A stretch of DNA of 64,000 bases from Gemmatirosa kalamazoonensis (GTDB lineage Bacteria > Gemmatimonadota > Gemmatimonadetes > Gemmatimonadales > Gemmatimonadaceae), in contig NZ_CP007128.1 in NCBI RefSeq assembly GCF_000522985.1, positions 1,224,220-1,288,219 of the forward strand. The letters run 5' to 3'. Each line of letters begins with the position of its first letter. Within the stretch, counting starts at the first letter, position 1. Below are positions 7,209 through 47,385 of this stretch, piece after piece. The notes under the pieces are model-generated. The model worked only from the letters and a program-made list of their open reading frames with translations, did no database searches and was not told where the DNA came from. Made by a program: the position numbers and the translations under genes.

Positions 7209-7227
7209 GCGGGAGCGCACGGCTGCT

Positions 7228-7397
7228 CACGCGGAGGCGCGGAGCACGCGGAGAACCGTTTCTTGTATTGAACCACAGAGGACGCAGAGGACGCAGAGGG
7301 GAACCAATTCTTGTTGGTTTCCTCTGCGTCCTCTGCGTCCTCTGTGGTTAACACACACAGCCGAGGCATTTCTCCGCGTTCTCCGCGCCTCCGCGTG
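7228..7397. repeat. Nested tandem-unit hairpin (one hairpin inside another)
   Basis: The outer arms 7228-7255 and 7370-7397 (unit about GCGGAGAAC) match in 27 of 28 positions. Between them lies a different hairpin, 7270-7350, with arms built from the 9-nt unit CAGAGGACG and closed by AACCAA/TTGGTT. It fills the gap between the convergent esterase and AAC(3) genes. No gene is seen here. A bidirectional terminator role is possible, but there is no T-run. Confidence 0.9.
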
Positions 7398-14845: not shown

Positions 14846-15355
14846 GTGACACGGGTGACCGAAGCCACGAAGCGTTCCCTGCTCGCGCTCGTGCCGCTCG
14901 TCCTGATCGCCGCGTGCCGCCGCGACACGCCCGACGTGCGCGAGCCGTTAGGCGCGCGGGTGGCGGGGCTCGCGCACCCGGTGCTCTCGACGCACGGCGC
15001 CCGCGCGGTGCCCGCCTCCACGACGTCGCTGCCGCCGGCGAGCTACTCGGCCGACCAGGCGGCGCGCGGGGCGCAGGTCTACAAGGCGACGTGCGCGCGC
15101 TGCCACCCGCCGGGGCAGCTCGACGGCGACGCGTTCGCGGTGGCGTGGAACGAGGCGCGCGTGTCCACGCTCTACACCACCCTTCGCAACACCATGCCGC
15201 AGGACAAGCCCGGAAGCCTCAGCGACTCACAGTACGTGGACGTGATCGCGTACCTCCTGCAGCGGAGTCGCGTGCCGGCGGGCGCGGCCCCGCTGGCGCC
15301 GGACAGCGTGGCGCTCCGTGGGCTGCGGATCGCCGTGACGCCGAGGACGCCATGA
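14846..15355 (+). CDS. Cytochrome c lipoprotein (monohaem class I)
   Basis: 169 residues from GTG 14846. Lipoprotein signal SLLALVPLVLIAAC puts it on the periplasmic face of a membrane. The haem motif CARCH lies near residue 86 (QVYKATCARCHPPG) and the likely axial methionine is in NTMPQDKPGSLSDSQYVDVIAYLLQ. The layout matches small c-type cytochromes that accept electrons from periplasmic quinoproteins or flavoproteins. Its stop overlaps the next start in ATGA. Confidence 0.9.
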   Translation: MTRVTEATKRSLLALVPLVLIAACRRDTPDVREPLGARVAGLAHPVLSTHGARAVPASTTSLPPASYSADQAARGAQVYKATCARCHPPGQLDGDAFAVAWNEARVSTLYTTLRNTMPQDKPGSLSDSQYVDVIAYLLQRSRVPAGAAPLAPDSVALRGLRIAVTPRTP

Positions 15356-16521
15356 GGATCGCGCGTCGGATCGCACGCGGAGCCGCCGAGAGCTTCGGTC
15401 TCATGCGGAGCCGCGGAGCGCGCGGAGAACGGCGAGCGTCGTCGGTGTGCTCCGCGTTCTCCGCAGCTCCGCGTGCGGCCGTCCTGTCGCTGGCGACGGT
15501 CGCCTCGTTGGGCGCGCAGCCGGGCGTGGCGCCGACGAACGACCTGCCGAACCCCTACCGCACCGTGGAGGGGTGGGCGCGGATGCCGGCCGGGCGGACG
15601 TGGGGGTCGACGAGCGCCGTGGACATCGACCGCGACGGACGGAGCGTGTGGGTCGCGGAACGGTGCGGCGCGAACAGCTGCGCGGGGTCGGCGCTGCCGT
15701 CGGTGCTGCTGTTCGATTCCACGGGGACGCTCGTGCGCGCGTTCGGCGCGGGACTGCTCGTCGCGCCGCACGGCATCCACGTCGACCGCGACGGCAACGT
15801 GTGGGTGACCGACTGCGCGTGCACGGGCGGCCGCAACGCGCCGGTGACGCCGGTGACGAAGGACTCCGCGGCGCCGCCGCGCGGCCACCAGGTCTTCGAG
15901 TTCGCGCCCGACGGCCGGCTGCTCCGCACGTTAGGCGCCGCCGGCGGCGCGCGGGCGCCGGGGTACTTCTGGCAGCCGAACGACGTGCTCGTGGCGCCCG
16001 ACGGCTCCGTGTTCGTGTCGGAGGGGCATTCGTCGCAGCCCGGATCCGTCGCCCGGGTGCTGAAGTTCGACCGCGCCGGCACGCTGGTGAAGACGTGGGG
16101 CACGTTCGGCAAGGCGTCTAACGAGATGGACCAGCCGCACGCGCTGGCGATGGACTCGCGCGGGCGGCTGTTCGTCGGCGACCGCGGCAACGACCGCATC
16201 CTGATCTTCGACCAGGACGGCGCGCTGCTCGACACGTGGTATCAGTTCGGGCGGCCGAGCGGGATCTGGATCGACGCGCGCGACACGATCTACGTCGCGG
16301 ACTCCGAGTCGGGCTCGGTGGCGCCGGCGCACGGCGCGTGGAAGCGCGGCATCCGCATCGGGTCGGCGCGCACGGGCGCGGTGACGGCGCTCATCCCCGA
16401 CCCCGCGACGAACCCCCCGAGCACGAGCGCGGCGGAGGGCGTGGCGGTGGACGCGCGCGGCGTGATCTACGGCGCGGAAGTGGGGCCGCGCGCGCTGAAG
16501 CGGTACGAGCGGATCCCGTGA
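15352..16521 (+). CDS. Secreted NHL-repeat six-bladed beta-propeller
   Basis: 389 residues from ATG 15352 (ATGA overlap with the cytochrome). Repeats carry the NHL pattern: PHGIHVDRDGNVWVTD, QPNDVLVAPDGSVFVSE, QPHALAMDSRGRLFVGDRGNDRI and RPSGIWIDARDTIYVADSESG. Related propellers include peptidyl-alpha-hydroxyglycine lyase-like and SMP-30-like proteins, but no catalytic set is certain. The N-terminus is odd: a tandem-unit hairpin (15402-15477) is read as GARGERRASSVCSAFSAAPR between the start and the hydrophobic AVLSLATVASLGAQ signal core, lengthening the n-region to about 40 residues. Confidence 0.82.
   Translation: MRIARRIARGAAESFGLMRSRGARGERRASSVCSAFSAAPRAAVLSLATVASLGAQPGVAPTNDLPNPYRTVEGWARMPAGRTWGSTSAVDIDRDGRSVWVAERCGANSCAGSALPSVLLFDSTGTLVRAFGAGLLVAPHGIHVDRDGNVWVTDCACTGGRNAPVTPVTKDSAAPPRGHQVFEFAPDGRLLRTLGAAGGARAPGYFWQPNDVLVAPDGSVFVSEGHSSQPGSVARVLKFDRAGTLVKTWGTFGKASNEMDQPHALAMDSRGRLFVGDRGNDRILIFDQDGALLDTWYQFGRPSGIWIDARDTIYVADSESGSVAPAHGAWKRGIRIGSARTGAVTALIPDPATNPPSTSAAEGVAVDARGVIYGAEVGPRALKRYERIP
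15402..15477. repeat. In-frame tandem-unit hairpin, GCGGAG family
   Basis: The left arm 15402-15430 (GCGGAGccGCGGAGcgcGCGGAGAAC) and right arm 15451-15477 (TCCGCGTTCTCCGCAGCTCCGCG) lie inside the signal-peptide region of the NHL gene. The reading frame stays open through both arms and the 20-nt loop. It is the same family as the outer arms at 7228-7397 and the elements at 47406 and 60534. Confidence 0.85.
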
Positions 16522-19372: not shown

Positions 19373-20880
19373 GCGCCACGCCTCGCTACTATCCGGTGAT
19401 GCTCGACCTCACCGGGCGGCTCGCCGTCGTGGTGGGCGGCGGCGCCGTGGCGGCGCAGAAGGCGCGCGAGCTGGCGGAGGCGGGCGCGCGCGTGCGCGTC
19501 GTCGCGCCGGAGGTCGGTCCGGCGATGGCGGAGCTGTCGGGCGTGGTGACGCTCGAGCGGCGCGCGTACCGCGAGGGCGATCTCGCGGGCGCCGCGATCG
19601 CGGTGGCGGCGACGGACGATCGCGCGGTGAACCACGCGGTGTGGGAGGAGGCCGAGGCGGCGCACGTGCTGCTGAACGCGGTGGACGACGTGGCGCACTG
19701 CCACTTCATCGCGCCGTCGGTGCACCGCGAGGGCGACATCACGGTGACCGTGTCGACGGCGGGCCACTGCCCGACGCTCGCCGTGCGGCTGCGCGAGCGC
19801 ATCGCGCGCGTGGTGCGCCGCGAGCACGGCGAGTTCGCGCGGCTCGCCGGTGCGCTGCGCACCGACATCGCGCGGCGCGTGCCCGACTTCGCGGCCCGGC
19901 GCGCGCTCTGGTACCGCATCGTCGACTCGGACGCGATCGACGCGGTGCGGCGCGGGGAGACGGACGAGGCGCTGCTGATCATCGAGCGCCTCGTGCGGGA
20001 GGCCGAGCGTGGAGCGTGGAGCGTGGAGCGTGGAGCGCCCTTCGCTGCCACGCTCCACGCTCCACGCTCCACGCTCGGCGTGGTCCATCTGGTCGGCGCC
20101 GGCCCGGGCGACGCGGAGCTCATCACGATGCGCGGCCTGCGGCTGCTCCGCTCGGCCGACGTCGTCGTGTACGACCAGCTCGTCGGCGCCGAGCTGCTGA
20201 CGTACGCGCGGCCCGACGCGCGGCTCGTCTGCGTGGGGAAGCACGGGCACGGCGCGTTCACGCCGCAGCAGGACATCGACGCGCTGCTGATCGCGGAGGC
20301 GCGCGCGGGGCGGCGCGTGGTGCGGCTCAAGGGGGGCGATCCGTTCGTGTTCGGGCGCGGCGGGGAGGAGATGGCGGCGCTGCGCGCGGCGGGGGTGCGG
20401 TGCGAGGTGGTGCCGGGGGTGTCGTCCGCGGTCGCGGCGCCGGCCGCGGCGGGGATCCCGCTCACGCATCGCGCGCTCGCGTCGGGATTCGCGGTGGTGA
20501 CGGGCCACGAGTGCGGCGAGGGCACGCGACTCGACTGGAGCGCGCTCGCGCGCGTGCCGACGCTCGTCGTGCTCATGGGGCTGCGCGCGCTGCCTAACAT
20601 CGTTGGGCGCCTCGCGGCTCACGGCCTGGACCTGGACACGCCTGCGGCGGTCGTGTCGCGCGGCACGCTCCCCGATCAGCGCGTGGTGACCGGGACGCTG
20701 GCGACGATCGCCGATCTCGCCGCGGCGGCGGATCTCGCGCAGCCGGCGACGCTCGTGATCGGCGAGGTCGTCCGGCTGCGCGACGCGGGCCGCCTAACGA
20801 CCGGGCAGCGCGAGCGCGACGAGGGAAGTGTTCGCGCCGGCGCCGGTGGCGAACACGATGTACTGCTTCCCCTGGTGTAG
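19369..20880 (+). CDS. cysG: Sirohaem synthase: precorrin-2 dehydrogenase/ferrochelatase fused to uroporphyrinogen-III methyltransferase
   Basis: 503 residues. Residues 1-210 form a Met8/CysG-N domain (YYPVMLDLTGRLAVVVGGG, NAVDDVAHCHFIAPS, VSTAGHCPTLAVRLRE). Residues about 235-475 form the SUMT domain (VHLVGAGPGDAELITMRGL, DVVVYDQLV, RLKGGDPFVFGRGGEE, VVPGVSSAVAAPAAAGIPLTHR). Between them a tandem-unit hairpin is translated as the linker ERGAWSVERGAPFAATLHAP. It supplies sirohaem for the upstream reductase (ATGA overlap). The last 29 residues overlap the convergent PQQ dehydrogenase gene by 87 nt, unusual for both. Confidence 0.92.
   Translation: MSATPRYYPVMLDLTGRLAVVVGGGAVAAQKARELAEAGARVRVVAPEVGPAMAELSGVVTLERRAYREGDLAGAAIAVAATDDRAVNHAVWEEAEAAHVLLNAVDDVAHCHFIAPSVHREGDITVTVSTAGHCPTLAVRLRERIARVVRREHGEFARLAGALRTDIARRVPDFAARRALWYRIVDSDAIDAVRRGETDEALLIIERLVREAERGAWSVERGAPFAATLHAPRSTLGVVHLVGAGPGDAELITMRGLRLLRSADVVVYDQLVGAELLTYARPDARLVCVGKHGHGAFTPQQDIDALLIAEARAGRRVVRLKGGDPFVFGRGGEEMAALRAAGVRCEVVPGVSSAVAAPAAAGIPLTHRALASGFAVVTGHECGEGTRLDWSALARVPTLVVLMGLRALPNIVGRLAAHGLDLDTPAAVVSRGTLPDQRVVTGTLATIADLAAAADLAQPATLVIGEVVRLRDAGRLTTGQRERDEGSVRAGAGGEHDVLLPLV
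20005..20076. repeat. In-frame tandem-unit hairpin, GAGCGTG family, inside cysG
   Basis: The left arm 20005-20037 repeats GAGCGTG four times and the right arm 20048-20076 repeats the complement CACGCTC four times around a 10-nt loop. It sits precisely at the boundary between the two enzymatic domains and keeps the frame open, so it either replaced a linker or fused two formerly separate genes. Confidence 0.9.
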
Positions 20881-23097: not shown

Positions 23098-23613
23098 TCA
23101 CGAAGACGGTGGCTTCTTCGCGGGGCCGCGCGCCGGCGCACCGACCTCGATGCGGACGTCTTTCACCGCGTCGGCATCCGGCGGCAGCTCGCTCTCCCCA
23201 GCGGGGAGCTTGTTCATCTTGAGGAGATAGGCCACGACGTCCGCGTACTGCTGCGGATCCAGTCCCCCGGGATCGTTCTTCGGCATCTTCGTGCTCACGA
23301 AGCCGAGCAGGTCGCCGACCGTCTTGCCCTTCCACCACGTGGCGAACGTGACACCGGTGTGTGACGCGGGGGTGTGACATGACTTGCACGACATCACGTA
23401 CACGTCCGCACCGCGCTTCGCCTGCACCTCCGTGTAGACCGCGGAGCGTGTCGTGCGTGCCGCGGGCGTGTCCTTGGCAACGGCTTGCGCCGAGAGGCGA
23501 GATGCGAGGACGAGAAGGAGCATGAACCGCAGCGGACGCAGAGGACGCAGAGGAGAACCAATTCGTCGCTGGTTTCCTCTGCGTCCTCTGCGGTTCAAAT
23601 GTGCTTCACTCAT
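23098..23613 (-). CDS. Periplasmic cytochrome c
   Basis: 171 residues if it starts at ATG 23613, which overlaps the HupE-like stop as ATGA and has GGTGGAGG upstream. ATG 23523 (141 residues) is the alternative but has no ribosome-binding site. The signal core is FMLLLVLASRLSAQ, haem motif CKSCH (VYVMSCKSCHTP), probable axial Met in TKMPKNDPGGLDPQQYADVVAYLL. From 23613 the first 30 residues include RRGRRGNQRRIGSPLRPLRPLR encoded by a tandem-unit hairpin, so the element lies between start codon and native signal peptide. Likely electron partner of the PQQ enzyme. Confidence 0.85.
   Translation of the reverse strand: MSEAHLNRRGRRGNQRRIGSPLRPLRPLRFMLLLVLASRLSAQAVAKDTPAARTTRSAVYTEVQAKRGADVYVMSCKSCHTPASHTGVTFATWWKGKTVGDLLGFVSTKMPKNDPGGLDPQQYADVVAYLLKMNKLPAGESELPPDADAVKDVRIEVGAPARGPAKKPPSS
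23524..23597. repeat. In-frame tandem-unit hairpin, CAGAGGACG family
   Basis: Left arm 23524-23560, right arm 23570-23597, ends GAACCGCAG/CTGCGGTTC, tip ACCA/TGGT. The left arm has three units and the right two, so unit number can change independently in each arm. It is translated within the cytochrome c N-terminus if the coupled start is used. Confidence 0.88.
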
Positions 23614-28960: not shown

Positions 28961-29040
28961 GAACCGCAGCGGACGCAGAGGACGCAGACGACACCAACGA
29001 GAGTGGTTCTCCTCTGCGTCCTCTGCGTCCTCTGCGGTTC
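28961..29040. repeat. Tandem-unit hairpin, CAGAGGACG family
   Basis: The arms begin GAACCGCAG (28961) and end CTGCGGTTC (29040), with the 9-nt unit repeated about three times each side and an ACCA/TGGT tip. It fills the gap between the ABC exporter stop and the nucleotidyltransferase start. The right arm is open in frame with that gene (LLCVLCVLCGS), so an N-terminal extension is possible from ATG 29003. Confidence 0.9.
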
Positions 29041-29053
29041 AATCCAAAGAGCC

Positions 29054-29974
29054 GTGACCGAGACGCCCCTCGAGCTCCGCTACCATCGCGCCCTCGACGC
29101 GCTCGTCGCGCAGGTGCGCGAGGATCGCTCGGTGGTCGCGGCGATCCTCGGCGGCAGCCTGTCGCACGACACGGTCTGGGAGCGCTCCGACATCGACCTG
29201 GTGCTGGTGACGCAGGACGAGCGGAAGAGCGGGCCGGGGAGCTACACGCTCAGCGCCGACGGCGTGCACGTGCACGCGTGGCTGATCCAGCGGGCCGAGC
29301 TCCGGCGCATCGTCGACGGCGCGCTGCACAACTCGTTCATCCACGCGTTCCTCGCGAAGGGCCGCCTGCTCTACTCGCACGACGACACGCTGGCCGAGCT
29401 GATGGCGCGCGTACGCGACGTCGGCGAGCGCGACACGGAGCTGCAGCTCTTCCAGGCCGGGATCGAGGCGCTCGGCCCGCTCGACAAGGCGCACAAGTGG
29501 ATGATCACGCGCGGCGACCTGCATTACACCGCGCTCTGGATCCTGTACGCCGCGACGCCCATCGCGCGCCTCGAGATCGTCGGCCGCCGGCTCATCGCCG
29601 ACCGCGAGGTGATCCCGCAGGCCGCGAAGCTCGACCCCGCGCTGTTCGACACGATCTACACCGGCCTGCTCGATCGCCCGAAGACGCGCGACGCGGTGCA
29701 GGCGGCGCTCGACGCGGCGTCCGGCTATGTGCGCACGCGCGCGCCGCGGCTGTTCGCGCCGATCGTGGCGCACCTGCGCGACGTGCGCGAGGCACGCTCC
29801 GCCACCGAGATCGACGACCACTTCCGCCGGCACGTCGGCGTCGAGGGCGTGTCGCTCGCCTGCGAGTACCTCGCGCACGAGGGCCTCATCGGCCGCGCGT
29901 CGACGCCCGTCAAGCTCACGAAGCGGAGCAACGTGGAGGTGCAGGAGCTCGCGTTCTACGCGCTCGGCGCATGA
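29054..29974 (+). CDS. Nucleotidyltransferase-fold protein
   Basis: 306 residues from GTG 29054. The MNT-type signature [24 protein letters not shown] gives G-G-S and D-x-D for metal and NTP binding. The C-terminal two-thirds are helical ([30 protein letters not shown]) like kanamycin-nucleotidyltransferase or DUF4037 proteins, ending in a winged-helix-like segment. Target unknown; a resistance or signalling transferase is possible. The upstream hairpin abuts the start. Confidence 0.82.
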
Positions 29975-36718: not shown

Positions 36719-36947
36719 CACGCGGAGCCGCGGAGGACTGCGTCTTTGCCTCTTCGAATCGAACCGCAGAGGGCCGCGGAGAACATCGACTTCTCTTGAC
36801 CACAGAGGACACAGAGGACACGGAGGAGAACCCTTTCAAAAGGGTGGGTTTCCTCTGTGCCCTCCGTGTCCTCCGTGGTTCAACACGAAGAGGCAGTCCT
36901 CTGCGGCCCTCTGCGGCCCTCCGCGGTTCAATGCTGTTCTCCGCGTG
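36719..36947. repeat. Complex nested tandem-unit hairpin
   Basis: At least three arm pairs: CACGCGGAG (36719) with CTCCGCGTG (36939-36947); GAACCGCAGAGGGCCGCGG (36761) with CCTCCGCGGTTC-type sequence to 36928; and an inner 36799-36880 pair of the CAGAGGAC(A/G) family tipped by CCCTTT/AAAGGG. A further perfect match, TGCCTCTTCG (36747-36756) with CGAAGAGGCA (36886-36895), would cross the second pair. Everything between the TPR gene and the propeller gene is this element; no gene is seen here. Confidence 0.85.
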
Positions 36948-39900: not shown

Positions 39901-40218
39901 GGCAAGGCGATCGCCGCGACGATCGACTCGCTCGAGCCGAAGCTCTCCACGAAGGCCGCGAACGGGCAGGACGTCATCAACTACCGCAACGGCATCAACG
40001 CGCAGTACGCGTTCCTGCTCGGCAACGTGGAGCAGAACGACGTCGTGACGCAGCCGTCGCGCGAGCGGTTCGCGGAGCTCGAGCGGCTGTGGACCGCGCT
40101 CCGCGGCCAGGCCGACGCGGTGGTGCAGAGCGAGGTCGCGGCGTTCAACAAGCTGCTGCAGGACGGCGGCGTCGGCGGCGTCATCGTGCCGACCCCGAAG
40201 CCGAAGGTGGCGATGTGA
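37000..40218 (+). CDS. Secreted sortilin/BNR-repeat beta-propeller protein
   Basis: 1072 residues from GTG 37000, with AAGGA nine bases upstream and signal peptide LHPRLVALALLAPAALAAQ. The N-terminal two-thirds hold many Asp-box (BNR) repeats, S-x-D-x-G-x-T-W: KSTDAGRTWTRV, RSTDGGRTWTQV, KSTDGGDTWTRL, RSDDAGKTWRRL, KSSDYGRTWTRI, forming a VPS10-like ten-bladed propeller. The last third adds an FN3-like and a helical region. Such proteins are common secreted WD40/YVTN/BNR-like products of Gemmatimonadota and Acidobacteriota. Function is unknown; glycosidase activity should not be assumed. An upstream in-frame ATG at 36796 would lie within the hairpin element. Confidence 0.85.
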   Translation: MFSLHPRLVALALLAPAALAAQVPGTLGARPRDAARGVTAGAYDSSAFRALQWRLIGPFRGGRANAVAGVPSQPLVYYAGYTGGGVWKTENAGHTWRPVSDSAFRVGSIGAIAVAESDPNVVYVGTGEHAVRGQSSSYGDGVYKSTDAGRTWTRVGLDATRQISAVRVHPQNPDVVYVAAQGDRWKPTTDRGVYRSTDGGRTWTQVLKGPNGTTGPSDLSMDPSNPRILYAAMWDHQRLPWQVRSGGPGSGIWKSTDGGDTWTRLSEGLPKVMGKIGVAVSPASPDRVYAIVEADKGGLYRSDDAGKTWRRLSEDRLIQTRAWYYMNVTADPQNADVVYVMNAPIVKSIDGGRTFQTLPATHGDNHQLWINPRDARFLVNANDGGVSVSLDGGRSWSTQDNQPTAQFYHVISDDEYPYRLYSGQQDNTSVMIRTRSDGPEIGERDWDIGPGCESANIGVNRADPRYVYGGCYQGIFEELDTRTDLTRSIMPWPALNLTEPTNETRYRFNWTAPTLVSEHDPNVIYFGGNVLFRTTDRGRTWAPASPDLTRNDKATQGLGGVPFTNEGAGGEVYGTIVTIEESPLDRNTLYVGTDDGLVQRTRDGGRTWTNVTPNGVGVGLANEIEASPLDSGTVYLAFRMDRHGDYAPYAFKSSDYGRTWTRITNGLRDGEPVRVVREDRQRRGLLFAGTETGAYVSFDGGAHWQSLQRNLPAVPVTDLEIRHGDLYASTEGRAFWALDDLSALRQMNDTVARDSVHLFAPRRAFLAGGPAAPTTTGGRNPPPGANVYILLAKAPDSSQTVKLEALDSAGRVLRTYTRRPSGAPAASAPDAAPNAGPNAASRTALDLKAGLNAFQWDLRADPPTTLPGNINVWGGTTTGYRVAPGRYQIRLTVGSVVQTQPLEVRQDPRLQTTPAEVAARDSIMRALNARVGEIHDALIRLRDVKEQVSRFVDRAKDAPNATAIQAKGKAIAATIDSLEPKLSTKAANGQDVINYRNGINAQYAFLLGNVEQNDVVTQPSRERFAELERLWTALRGQADAVVQSEVAAFNKLLQDGGVGGVIVPTPKPKVAM

Positions 40219-40220
40219 CG

Positions 40221-41087
40221 ATGGGCTCTTCGTGTGAACCACAGAGGACGCAGCGGGCGCAGAGGAGAACCACTCTTGTTGGTTTCCTCTGCGTCCTCTG
40301 CGTCCTCTGTGGTTCGAACCCACAGCGCACCTTCGCTCAGCCTTCACCGCTCGACCACGCCCACGCGCACAACGACTACGAGCACGCGCGCCCGCTGCTG
40401 GGCGCCCTGGAGCTCGGCTACGGCAGCGTGGAGGCCGACGTGTGGCTCGTGAACGGCGCGCTGCTCGTCGCCCACGCCCGTGACAGCGTGCGCACCGACC
40501 GCACGCTCGAAGCGGTCTACCTCGAGCCGCTGCGCGCGTGGGTGGCCGCGCATGACGGAAGCGTGTACGCGGGGCGCCCGCCGCTCACGCTCCTCGTCGA
40601 CGTGAAGTCGAACGCCGACTCCGCGTACGTCGTGCTGGATTCGGTGCTGCGCCGGTATGACGATCTGTTCACGTCGTGGCACGGCGACTCGGTGACCGAG
40701 CGCCCCGTGGTCGCCGTGATCTCCGGCGAGCGGCCGCTGGTCACGCTCCCGGCGAGCCGCGACCGGTGGGCCGCGCTCGACGGCCGCCTAACGGACCTCG
40801 GCGCGGCGCACGGCACCCCGGCCGCGGCGATGCCGCTCGTGAGCGACGACTGGAAGCACGTCACGAAGTGGCGCGGCGACGGCCCCGCGCCGGCGTCGGT
40901 GCGCCGCACCGTCGCGCGGCTCGTAACGCGCACGCACGCCGAAGGGCGGCGGCTCCGCTTCTGGGGCACGCCCGATCGCGTCGTCGTGTGGCGGCTGCTT
41001 CGTGACGCGGGCGTGGACTTCATCGGTGCCGACGATCTCAACGCGCTGCACGACTTTCTCGTAGGTCGTGACGGACGACGACCGTGA
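40221..41087 (+). CDS. Secreted PI-PLC/GDPD-superfamily phosphodiesterase (AIM6-like)
   Basis: 288 residues from ATG 40221, two bases after the upstream stop. The mature start is LDHAHAHNDYEHARPLLGALELGYGSVEADVWLVNGALLVAHA, the TIM-barrel opening of AIM6/GDPD-like phosphodiesterases (His and Glu-Asp metal/catalytic residues). Middle PPLTLLVDVKSNAD and C-terminal RRLRFWGTPDRVVVWRLLRDAGVDFIGADDL fit. The whole signal peptide is encoded by a tandem-unit hairpin: the left arm gives basic EPQRTQRAQRR and the right arm hydrophobic LVGFLCVLCVLCG. Confidence 0.85.
   Translation: MGSSCEPQRTQRAQRRTTLVGFLCVLCVLCGSNPQRTFAQPSPLDHAHAHNDYEHARPLLGALELGYGSVEADVWLVNGALLVAHARDSVRTDRTLEAVYLEPLRAWVAAHDGSVYAGRPPLTLLVDVKSNADSAYVVLDSVLRRYDDLFTSWHGDSVTERPVVAVISGERPLVTLPASRDRWAALDGRLTDLGAAHGTPAAAMPLVSDDWKHVTKWRGDGPAPASVRRTVARLVTRTHAEGRRLRFWGTPDRVVVWRLLRDAGVDFIGADDLNALHDFLVGRDGRRP
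40236..40315. repeat. In-frame tandem-unit hairpin forming a signal peptide
   Basis: GAACCACAG (40236) to CTGTGGTTC (40315), three 9-nt units per arm and an AACCA/TGGTT tip. Reading frame one gives Arg/Gln-rich residues from the left arm and Leu/Cys/Val from the right arm. These are the charged n-region and hydrophobic h-region of the phosphodiesterase export signal. Confidence 0.9.
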
Positions 41088-44991: not shown

Positions 44992-47385
44992 TCAGGAAAG
45001 GGTCGTCGTCAGCACCGTGCGAATCTCCTCTGCCCGCGGCGCGAACAGCGAGAGCTGGTCGGGATCCGCGAACACGACGTCGAAGTCCTCCGGCGCGAGC
45101 CCGCGCGCCAGCCGTGCCGCGTAGGTGTCGAGCAGCACGCGCGCGTAGTGCTCCACGTCGTAGTCGCGCGGGTCGGCGGCGTCGGCGCCACCGGCCTCGT
45201 CGCGCTCCGGCACCACGCCCGCGCCACCGCCCTGCGTGCGGTACACGCGCACGCGCTCGCCCACGCTCCAGTCCGAGCGGCCGCTCGCGAGCAGCGCCTC
45301 GTACGCGAGCTCGCGCCGCGACCCGCGCGACGCCGCGTACTGCGCCGGCGTCTTCGTCAGCCGCACGCGCGACGACACGTCGTGCGTCGGGATCGCCCGC
45401 GCGCGCAGCCGACCCAACGTGTCGAGGTACGCGTCGCGCACCCCCGCCACGTCGCCGGCGAGCAGCCGCTCGAGCGCGCGGCGCAGGAACGCGTCGCCGT
45501 ACGGCTCCGCGCGGCTCGACCGGAACGCCACGCCGCGCAGCAGCAGCCGCCCGTCGTAGGTCAGCAGGGCGTAGTTCTTCGGCTCGTGCGACAGCATCGC
45601 CGCGTACCGTCCCTCGAACTCCAGCTTCACGAGCGGTGGCAGCAGCGCCGCGACCTCGGCCACCACGCGCCGTTCGTCGGCCTCGCTCCACGCGTCGGGG
45701 ACGGCGAAGTACACGCCGTCGGTGTCCGCCTCGAGCAGCGTGACGCCGCGCGCCGCGAGCTCGCGGCACATCAGCCCGAGCGTCTCGCGGCCGCGGCGCG
45801 TCACCTCGTTCGCCGCGTGCACGTCGGCGAAACGCGTCAGCTCCCCGCCCGCGGCGAGATAGCCGTAGGCCGAGTTCACGACGATCTTCATCGCCGCCGA
45901 CACCGCCTCCTGCGTGTGCCGCTCCGCCGATCCGGCCGGCGCGGCGCGCGCCGCGTCCTTCGCCTCCAGTCGCTGCGCCACGAGCCGGTCGACGATCGCG
46001 AGCAGCGCGCCGAGGTGGTCGCGCGCCGGCCCGATGCGGAAGGCGCGCATGAGCGACGGATACAGGCTCGCCACGTCCGCCTTCACGACGTGCCGCGCGA
46101 CGCCGGTCGCGAACAGGTGCAGCGCGGCGCCGCTGTGCGGCGTCCCGTCGCCCGCCTCGTACGCCGGCAGCGCGGCACCCGCGCGCAGGTACGCGCGCAC
46201 GAGCAGCGGGTCGATCACGCCCGTCGCCGCGCCGGCGTCGGCGAGCCGCTCGTAGCGGCGCGGCGCCATCCGGGCGAGCGCGAACGCGGCGCCGCCCAAC
46301 ACCCGCGCCAGCCCCGCGACTTCCTCCACGTCCGCGGTCGCGTAGCGGCGCACGCGCGCCGGGTCGGTGCGATACACGACGTGGATCTGGTCGCCGCGGA
46401 TCAGCTCCCGCTCCGGCCCCGCGAGCCCGAAGTGGCGCGCCACCGCCTTCAGGCCGTGCCCCGGCAGCTCGCGCGCCCCGTGGTCGTAGCGGATCGTCGC
46501 GTCGAGCGTATCGATCAGCTCCCGCCCGGGCGCCACGTATCGGATGCGGTAATCGGGACTCGAGACTCGGGACTCGGGACTCGTGGGCTGCGGACTCCCG
46601 AGTCCCGAGTCCCGAGTCCCGAGTCCCGATGCTCGCACCCCGCGCCGTGCGCCGCGCTGCCGGAGCGGCCCGCCGACGCGGCCTAACGCGAGCGGCACGC
46701 CGAGCACCTGCGCGCGCCGCGCGACGAACGGGAGGTCGAAGCCGTGCAGGTTGTGGTTCTCGATCACGTCGGGGTCGGCCTCGGCGATCGTCGCGGCGAG
46801 TCGGCGAATGAGGTCCGCCTCCGCCGCGTCGCCGGTGCCGCGCGCCTCGATCGTGCCCACGCGTCCGTCGGGATGCCGCACGGCGACGAGGAAGATGCGG
46901 TCGCGCGCCGGGTCGAGCCCCGTCGTCTCGAGGTCGAACTGCAGCCGCCGCAGGTCGTCGAACGCGAGCCCGCGGAAGTACGTGCGCCCCGTCGCGACCA
47001 GGTACTGCTCGTCGGGCGGCAGCGAGAGCACGTGCGCATCGCCGAGGTCGCGGATCTGCCTAACGTTCTCGCCGAGCCGCCGCGACGCGCCGGCGAGCAG
47101 CGCGCGCGTGAGCGCGTTCCCGTCGTCGGCCGAGACGAGAAAGCGCAGCGCCCCCGGCCCGTCGAGCTCCCGCCACGCGAGCCCCGGCACCGCGGCGCCG
47201 CGCAGGTCGTCGAGCCGGTCGAGCAGCAGCCACGGACGGAACCGCTCGTCGTCGCGCTCGAGCACCTTCGTCTCCGGGTCCCGCCGCCACACGATCGCGC
47301 GTCCGTCCGCCTCCGCCCACACGGACACGATCCCCGGTGTCGGATCCCACCCCCACAGCCACTCGTCCTCGTTGGGCGCGGTCAT
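44992..47385 (-). CDS. Family B DNA polymerase
   Basis: 797 residues from ATG 47385. The 3'-5' exonuclease has ExoI FDLETTG, ExoII NHNLHGFDLPF and ExoIII YATADVEEV; the polymerase has motif A KADVASLYPSLM, motif B KIVVNSAYGYLA, the K-x-x-x-EGRY-like KLEFEGRYAAM and motif C EADTDGVYF. All catalytic aspartates seem present, suggesting an active PolB with proofreading, of the type used in damage tolerance or replication restart. A tandem-unit hairpin is translated between ExoII and ExoIII as SGLGTRDSGLGSPQPTSP plus ESRVSSPD, an insertion not seen in normal PolB. Confidence 0.92.
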   Translation of the reverse strand: MTAPNEDEWLWGWDPTPGIVSVWAEADGRAIVWRRDPETKVLERDDERFRPWLLLDRLDDLRGAAVPGLAWRELDGPGALRFLVSADDGNALTRALLAGASRRLGENVRQIRDLGDAHVLSLPPDEQYLVATGRTYFRGLAFDDLRRLQFDLETTGLDPARDRIFLVAVRHPDGRVGTIEARGTGDAAEADLIRRLAATIAEADPDVIENHNLHGFDLPFVARRAQVLGVPLALGRVGGPLRQRGARRGVRASGLGTRDSGLGSPQPTSPESRVSSPDYRIRYVAPGRELIDTLDATIRYDHGARELPGHGLKAVARHFGLAGPERELIRGDQIHVVYRTDPARVRRYATADVEEVAGLARVLGGAAFALARMAPRRYERLADAGAATGVIDPLLVRAYLRAGAALPAYEAGDGTPHSGAALHLFATGVARHVVKADVASLYPSLMRAFRIGPARDHLGALLAIVDRLVAQRLEAKDAARAAPAGSAERHTQEAVSAAMKIVVNSAYGYLAAGGELTRFADVHAANEVTRRGRETLGLMCRELAARGVTLLEADTDGVYFAVPDAWSEADERRVVAEVAALLPPLVKLEFEGRYAAMLSHEPKNYALLTYDGRLLLRGVAFRSSRAEPYGDAFLRRALERLLAGDVAGVRDAYLDTLGRLRARAIPTHDVSSRVRLTKTPAQYAASRGSRRELAYEALLASGRSDWSVGERVRVYRTQGGGAGVVPERDEAGGADAADPRDYDVEHYARVLLDTYAARLARGLAPEDFDVVFADPDQLSLFAPRAEEIRTVLTTTLS
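46553..46629. repeat. In-frame tandem-unit hairpin, GGGACTC family, inside polB
   Basis: The left arm repeats GGGACTC about four to five times (46553-46587) and the right arm repeats its complement GAGTCCC five times (46592-46629). The polymerase frame stays open through both arms. It sits in the exonuclease domain between ExoII and the next strand, likely a surface loop. Confidence 0.9.

Follow-up and report, generated by a model that had tools for sequence, protein, structure and literature searches.

A dispersed palindromic hairpin as the probable core of signal peptides in several exported-type genes of Gemmatirosa kalamazoonensis

The origin of new signal peptides is poorly documented. 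In Yersinia, the predicted signal peptide of YPO1552 was found to consist partly of a YPAL/RU-2 palindromic repeat (Delihas 2007, PMC2759123; PMC2229807), and the Rickettsia palindromic elements (RPE) are known as in-frame insertions in conserved protein genes (PMC2229807). In Enterobacterales, a study of signal peptide gain and loss among orthologues used ISEScan to look for transposable elements close to the N-termini, without finding any (PMC5952966). Here, a stretch of 64,000 nucleotides of the Gemmatirosa kalamazoonensis genome (contig NZ_CP007128.1, positions 1,224,220 to 1,288,219), hereafter the window, was analysed around a phosphodiesterase gene whose leader contains a palindromic hairpin. 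Comparison with further copies of this hairpin, in stretches fetched around them from the same genome (763 kb sampled, window included, all counts being lower bounds), indicates that the dispersed element has very probably been placed repeatedly behind the start codons of exported-protein genes, where its hydrophobic frame would supply the core of a general secretory (Sec) signal. In this case the source sequence is visible, the event is recurrent in one genome and the ancestral state is preserved in orthologues, which allows a direct test of whether repeat DNA can provide a working targeting signal.

YPO1552 resembles the present locus in that the repeat lies within the signal and related proteins of other genera have signals unrelated to it (PMC2759123, PMC2229807). 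However, it is a single case with a partial contribution from a 168-bp Yersinia element, whereas in Gemmatirosa another element is concerned, about 11 genes of the genome carry it, both the n- and the h-region are replaced and the native start is traceable in the operon. The RPE are likewise dispersed palindromic repeats found in frame in protein genes, but they lie inside protein bodies, whereas in Gemmatirosa the fusions are restricted to N-terminal leaders, and none of the 148 copies shared more than 40 nt with a called coding segment. As in the Enterobacterales study (PMC5952966), the N-terminal signals of orthologues differ by block insertion or deletion, with the difference that in Gemmatirosa it can be seen where the replacing sequence came from. 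Repetitive extragenic palindromic (REP) sequences are also high-copy, dispersed and mainly extragenic palindromes, but they measure 20–40 bp and carry a GTAG or CGTC tag (PMC3733652), in contrast to the Gemmatirosa element of about 80–100 bp with ends TTGAACC. No report of recurrent n- and h-region replacement by a repeat was found in the literature searched, which is weak evidence given that subscription journals were mostly outside its coverage.

The phosphodiesterase open reading frame (ORF), named AIM6-like in an earlier, sequence-only reading of the window, occupies positions 40221–41087 of the forward strand (+) and its translation yields 288 aa from an ATG at 40221. The start codon and first codons, MGSSC, cover 40221–40235 (+), and in a flank profile codons 2–5 look like the outer flank of the hairpin element, which is weakly conserved. 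The hairpin itself, delimited by its inverted repeat (40235–40317, core 40236–40315, +), RNA fold and family alignment, corresponds to codons ~6–32, reads EPQRTQRAQRRTTLVGFLCVLCVLCGS in this frame and provides the n- and h-regions. It is followed by NPQRTFA (40317–40337, +), which orthologue alignment suggests to be a remnant of the native c-region, ending at a putative signal peptidase site between A and Q. MGSSC, the hairpin and NPQRTFA make up the 39 codons of the leader, the next residue being Q, and the frame as a whole is MGSSC-EPQRTQRAQRRTTLVGFLCVLCVLCGS-NPQRTFAQPSPLDHAHAHNDYEH. The sequence-only reading had proposed that the hairpin at 40236–40315 is read in the phosphodiesterase frame, and this was confirmed by the inverted repeat, the ORF translation and the RNA fold (−70.6 kcal/mol, z = −12). 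The leader carries a net charge of +3 ahead of the h-region VGFLCVLCVL, whose mean Kyte-Doolittle value is 3.14, and no twin-arginine (Tat) motif was seen when the leaders were looked at by eye.

The position of the start is constrained by the neighbouring sequence. The VPS10/BNR gene upstream terminates with a TGA (40216–40218) 2 nt ahead of the ATG at 40221, which is the sole in-frame start between this stop and the HAHND motif (about 40359), the next in-frame GTG being located near 40440, within the catalytic domain. The coding signal detected by a codon-based gene caller, which was built on the fetched stretches, extends from 40347 to 41056. Regarding the protein itself, a Pfam/NCBIfam search returned no match. 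The AlphaFold model (pLDDT 85) is confident for a barrel from about residue 41, with low confidence across most of residues 1–38, and the top Foldseek matches were glycerophosphodiester phosphodiesterases, including 1zcc and 3no3 (probability 1.0, TM 0.46–0.6). Additionally, H48, H50, N51, D52, E71, D73 and H85 are conserved in the family and the HAHNDY motif is invariant, the HAHNDYEH motif being situated 3′ of the hairpin leader. The predicted barrel fold and the conserved N-terminal catalytic motif together characterise the protein as GDPD/PI-PLC-like.

The ancestral state is found in the relatives. The orthologue of genome G343, which is 66% identical to the phosphodiesterase, begins with MRPSPIHTAARFVLAALVASALVASASAAAQSPLDRAHAHNDY, an ordinary signal peptide (...ASASAAAQSPLDRAHAHNDY), and that of G040 begins with MPRTIHGNGEPVKLGTRTIIAIVCAVLVSMQARARSSLDHAHAHNDY; both ordinary signals stop at the same mature start as the phosphodiesterase, and no arm-like motif was found around either of these two orthologues. 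A hydrophobic ordinary N-terminus is also present in 26 of the 27 family members of other phyla, which characterises this, as judged from N-terminal sequences, as an exported family. Moreover, TFAQPSPLD of the phosphodiesterase aligns with the orthologue sequence AAAQSPLD, the tail of the native signal being kept. Since the hairpin is absent from the orthologues and these carry ordinary signals, the element would therefore have replaced the native n- and h-regions of the phosphodiesterase. The sequence-only reading had named orthologues with an ordinary signal plus an untranslated repeat as the observation that would contradict it, and what the orthologues show is the ordinary signal and no repeat. 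Its claim that no other export signal exists upstream of the mature start also held, considering the sole start at 40221, the orthologue signals ending at the same point and the same swap in further genes. However, its statement that the signal is made entirely from the hairpin stands for the n- and h-regions and is too strong for the rest, because the start codon and the TFA/Q cleavage region appear to be left over from the ancestral signal peptide.

Other genes with such a hairpin in their leader, which the sequence-only reading had suggested looking for, were found: about 11 copies are joined in frame to a start codon on one side and to an exported-type protein on the other, the cases being picked by eye from an open frame and a visible upstream start. 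Among the fused genes other than the phosphodiesterase, Pfam identified two beta-lactamase-family hydrolases (PF00144; L264 and L263), a D-Ala-D-Ala dipeptidase of family M15 (PF01427; L269), an OpuAC protein (PF04069; L248), a glycoside hydrolase (PF22422; L237) and an OEP protein (PF02321; L215); a protein of HEAT repeats (L249) is also fused, and a lipoprotein (L207) and a pseudopilin of the FTLVELL type (L336) were assigned by sequence motif. Two further cases in the window went beyond the earlier reading. The first, which is one of the 11 fused genes, is a cytochrome c gene (PF13442; 23098–23613, −), whose ATG lies in a 4-nt ATGA overlap with the upstream stop and whose leader contains a hairpin copy (23524–23602, −) in the PLRPLRPLR frame; here the hairpin gives a basic n-region followed by the native h-region MLLLVLASRLSAQ, and 18 of the 19 relatives read have ordinary signals. 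The second is an exported-type protein with NHL-like repeats, named so by eye (15352–16521, +), whose leader contains a hairpin from another family (CGCGGAG type, about 15400–15492); its native h-region is kept and its relatives have ordinary signals.

Among the fused genes, the reading frame of the hairpin is associated with the fate of the native signal. When the right arm is read in the hydrophobic frame (LCVLCVLCG), the native h-region is absent in 6/6 genes, and in the other frames it is present in 5/5 (Fisher p = 0.002, in a post hoc test defined after inspection). With the native h-region gone in the hydrophobic frame, it is probably the hairpin that forms the Sec signal core of these genes. 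In this group the net charge ahead of the h-region ranges from 0 to +8, and the h-regions derived from the element reach Kyte-Doolittle values of 2.0–3.3 over 10 residues, compared with 2.4–3.6 for the orthologue signals. By inspection, the residues ahead of the putative mature starts of the fused leaders (slash) are T-F-A/Q, L-G-A/Q, L-H-A/Q and L-S-A/Q. A further frame bias was observed according to the distance between hairpin and coding signal: copies within 40 nt favour the hydrophobic frame (14/24, p = 0.01) and those at 40–140 nt show no bias (19/59). This relationship is no more than suggestive, as a query in the hydrophobic frame had been used to collect part of the copies.

The orthologues of other fused genes point in the same direction. 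OpuAC has ordinary signal peptides in 18 readable orthologues, and in 15/15 examined orthologues the gene begins where a long upstream ORF stops, with the same start/stop overlap as L248. Two glycoside hydrolase orthologues end in ...GAQ/VLD and ...RAQ/VLD, as compared with ...HAQ/VLD in this genome, and the orthologue of L264 in G377 begins with MSRVRPFTRSMAAVVAATTLVAPLSAQQQ, an ordinary signal. In 10 of the 11 fused genes the start codon lies −1 to +8 nt from the upstream stop, as compared with 12% of stops in the convergent arrangement and 29% in the co-directional one that have any ATG at such a distance, a statistic that is partly circular because the cases were picked by eye. No convincing Shine-Dalgarno motif was found ahead of the starts. 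The M15 dipeptidase was dropped as a clean orthologue comparison, given that its domain is fused to a serine hydrolase in most relatives and only L358 and L360 are comparable.

These observations are consistent with a mechanism in which the element would insert, or be copied, directly after the native start codon, on or beside the stop of the upstream gene, with translation proceeding from the native ATG. The left arm would then give an arginine-rich, positive n-region, the right arm would in one frame give the strongly hydrophobic h-region LCVLCVLCG, and the retained native c-region would offer the signal peptidase cleavage site. In the hydrophobic frame the native core may have become redundant and then been lost, or may have been swapped in one step; in the other frames the hairpin would merely extend the basic n-region and the native h-region would stay. 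Should export be confirmed, a working protein address label would have come from repeat DNA on several occasions. In addition to the post hoc test and the selection of cases and copies mentioned above, several points weigh against this interpretation: an arginine lies inside the phosphodiesterase c-region, the leaders are long (38–42 aa), the charge ahead of the h-region of L264 is 0, translation could be impaired by a strong hairpin lying 15 nt after the start codon, and the gene caller was home-made.

Three other explanations were considered. It is unlikely, though compatible with the hairpin acting as signal core, that the element was selected mainly as an mRNA structure behind the start, which would pause translation or couple the genes of the operon, its signal coding being incidental. 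In the fused genes a very stable hairpin does begin about 6–24 nt past the start codon, but RNA structure alone would not predict the association of frame with loss of the native h-region. Slightly less credible is that the hairpin is translated as a tolerated N-terminal extension, export being lost or otherwise driven and the protein now cytosolic; the genes in the PLRPLR frame do use the hairpin as an n-region extension only, but six genes in the hydrophobic frame have no other h-region, and these include the OpuAC binding protein and the M15 dipeptidase, which must work outside. Least probable of the three is that the hairpin goes untranslated and serves between cistrons for mRNA stability or coupling, its in-frame reading being a by-product and the phosphodiesterase starting downstream or being a dead gene. 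Most copies do lie outside coding segments, and an element that is stop-free in most frames is expected to join genes by chance (as with the nucleotidyltransferase below and L199). Against this, the interval from element to catalytic motif has no in-frame start, the full-length gene is intact and shares 66% identity with its orthologue, and the family is exported elsewhere and without the element no signal would be left.

Some fused or possibly fused copies deserve separate mention. In L336 (2987–3059, −) the hairpin appears to make the basic prepilin leader ahead of FTLVELLVS, with no other in-frame start. L347 (2962–3034, −) and L271 (2939–3029, −) are possible lipoproteins, with a cysteine motif (LFAC and LVQSC) after the hydrophobic-frame arm, and L347 could start at a TTG supplied by the element itself (TTGAACC). 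In L351 (3006–3079, −), the leader of a glycoside-hydrolase-like protein contains the hairpin pieces SSASSASSVV and EPQRTQRTQR followed by the native h-region ALLLSLSLGCSSVVHAQ. The M15 dipeptidase stands alone in L269, and in most relatives (L355, L357, L361, L362 and L367 compared) it forms the C-terminal portion of a larger protein whose upstream region is serine-hydrolase-like; the hairpin may have given the detached domain its own signal.

As a family, the element is a palindrome of ~80–100 bp with conserved ends TTGAACC...GGTTCAA and arms of 9-nt units. The consensus has no internal stop, and in one frame, on either strand, it encodes the basic-then-hydrophobic peptide LNRRGRRGRRG...FLCVLCVLCGS, in agreement with what had been proposed for an inverted repeat of this unit. 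The remaining frames read TAEDAED..SSASSAS (acidic, then SASS) and EPQRTQR..PLRPLRPLR (basic, then PLRPLR), and the length of the loop sets which left-arm reading joins which right-arm reading. At least 148 distinct hairpins were found in the fetched stretches, a covariance search gave at least 150 matches, and arm-like 15-mers with up to 2 mismatches number about 300 per strand in 7.48 Mb, as compared with about 35 for a reversed control. Numerous, scattered and bounded by terminal inverted repeats, the copies are those of an element resembling a miniature inverted-repeat transposable element (MITE). Other Gemmatimonadota genomes yielded few copies, and none of their loci that were read showed a clear signal peptide fusion. 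Because one frame on either strand gives a basic-then-hydrophobic leader, the family might be regarded as a mobile secretion-signal cassette whose insertion would create new export signals and re-address proteins, beyond replacing existing signals, and whose coding potential would help it persist in gene-dense operons; this extension, taken as a whole, is rather doubtful.

Not every copy next to a gene acts as a leader. The sequence-only reading had given a position at 29003 as a second example, and the reading itself exists (GTG VLLCVLCVLCGS), but not as a signal: this copy (28961–29041, +) precedes a nucleotidyltransferase (29054–29974, +), for which no export signal is expected because it starts at a GTG of its own (29054), has coding signal from 29052 and is Polbeta/NTP_transf_2-like and of cytosolic type. 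Likewise, the VPS10/BNR gene keeps its native signal LHPRLVALALLAPAALAAQ downstream of a hairpin copy at 36796–36883 (+), and a copy at 7269–7361 (no strand assigned) lies between convergent genes and is fused to none. L345 (a zinc-finger protein) and L199 (ligase-like, own ATG) were rejected as fusions, being cytosolic-type proteins with their own downstream starts. A genome-wide pattern of arm plus AQ, in frame in 10 of 19 matches, was too weak alone, and two of the in-frame matches, L218 and L341, were rejected as not being gene fusions. Annotators should be aware that hairpin leaders can be genuine coding sequence, as in some genes here, or spurious extensions, as in others.

Other repeats were also observed. 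The octamer CGTTAGGC/GCCTAACG is ~20-fold over-represented in the sampled 763 kb (271 + 247 copies, against about 12 expected per strand by base composition) and is a HIP1-like highly iterated motif; CGCCTAACG is ~25-fold over-represented and GCGATCGC is enriched too. An 18-nt flank common to L264 and L269 contains a strongly over-represented octamer and was left unused as a sign of a copied module. The window also harbours other hairpin families with short-tandem-repeat arms, of the CGCGGAG, GAGCGTGG and GGACTCGG types, located at 7226/7370, 15400/15448, 47406/47455 and 60534/60583, at 20002–20079 and at 46542–46640.
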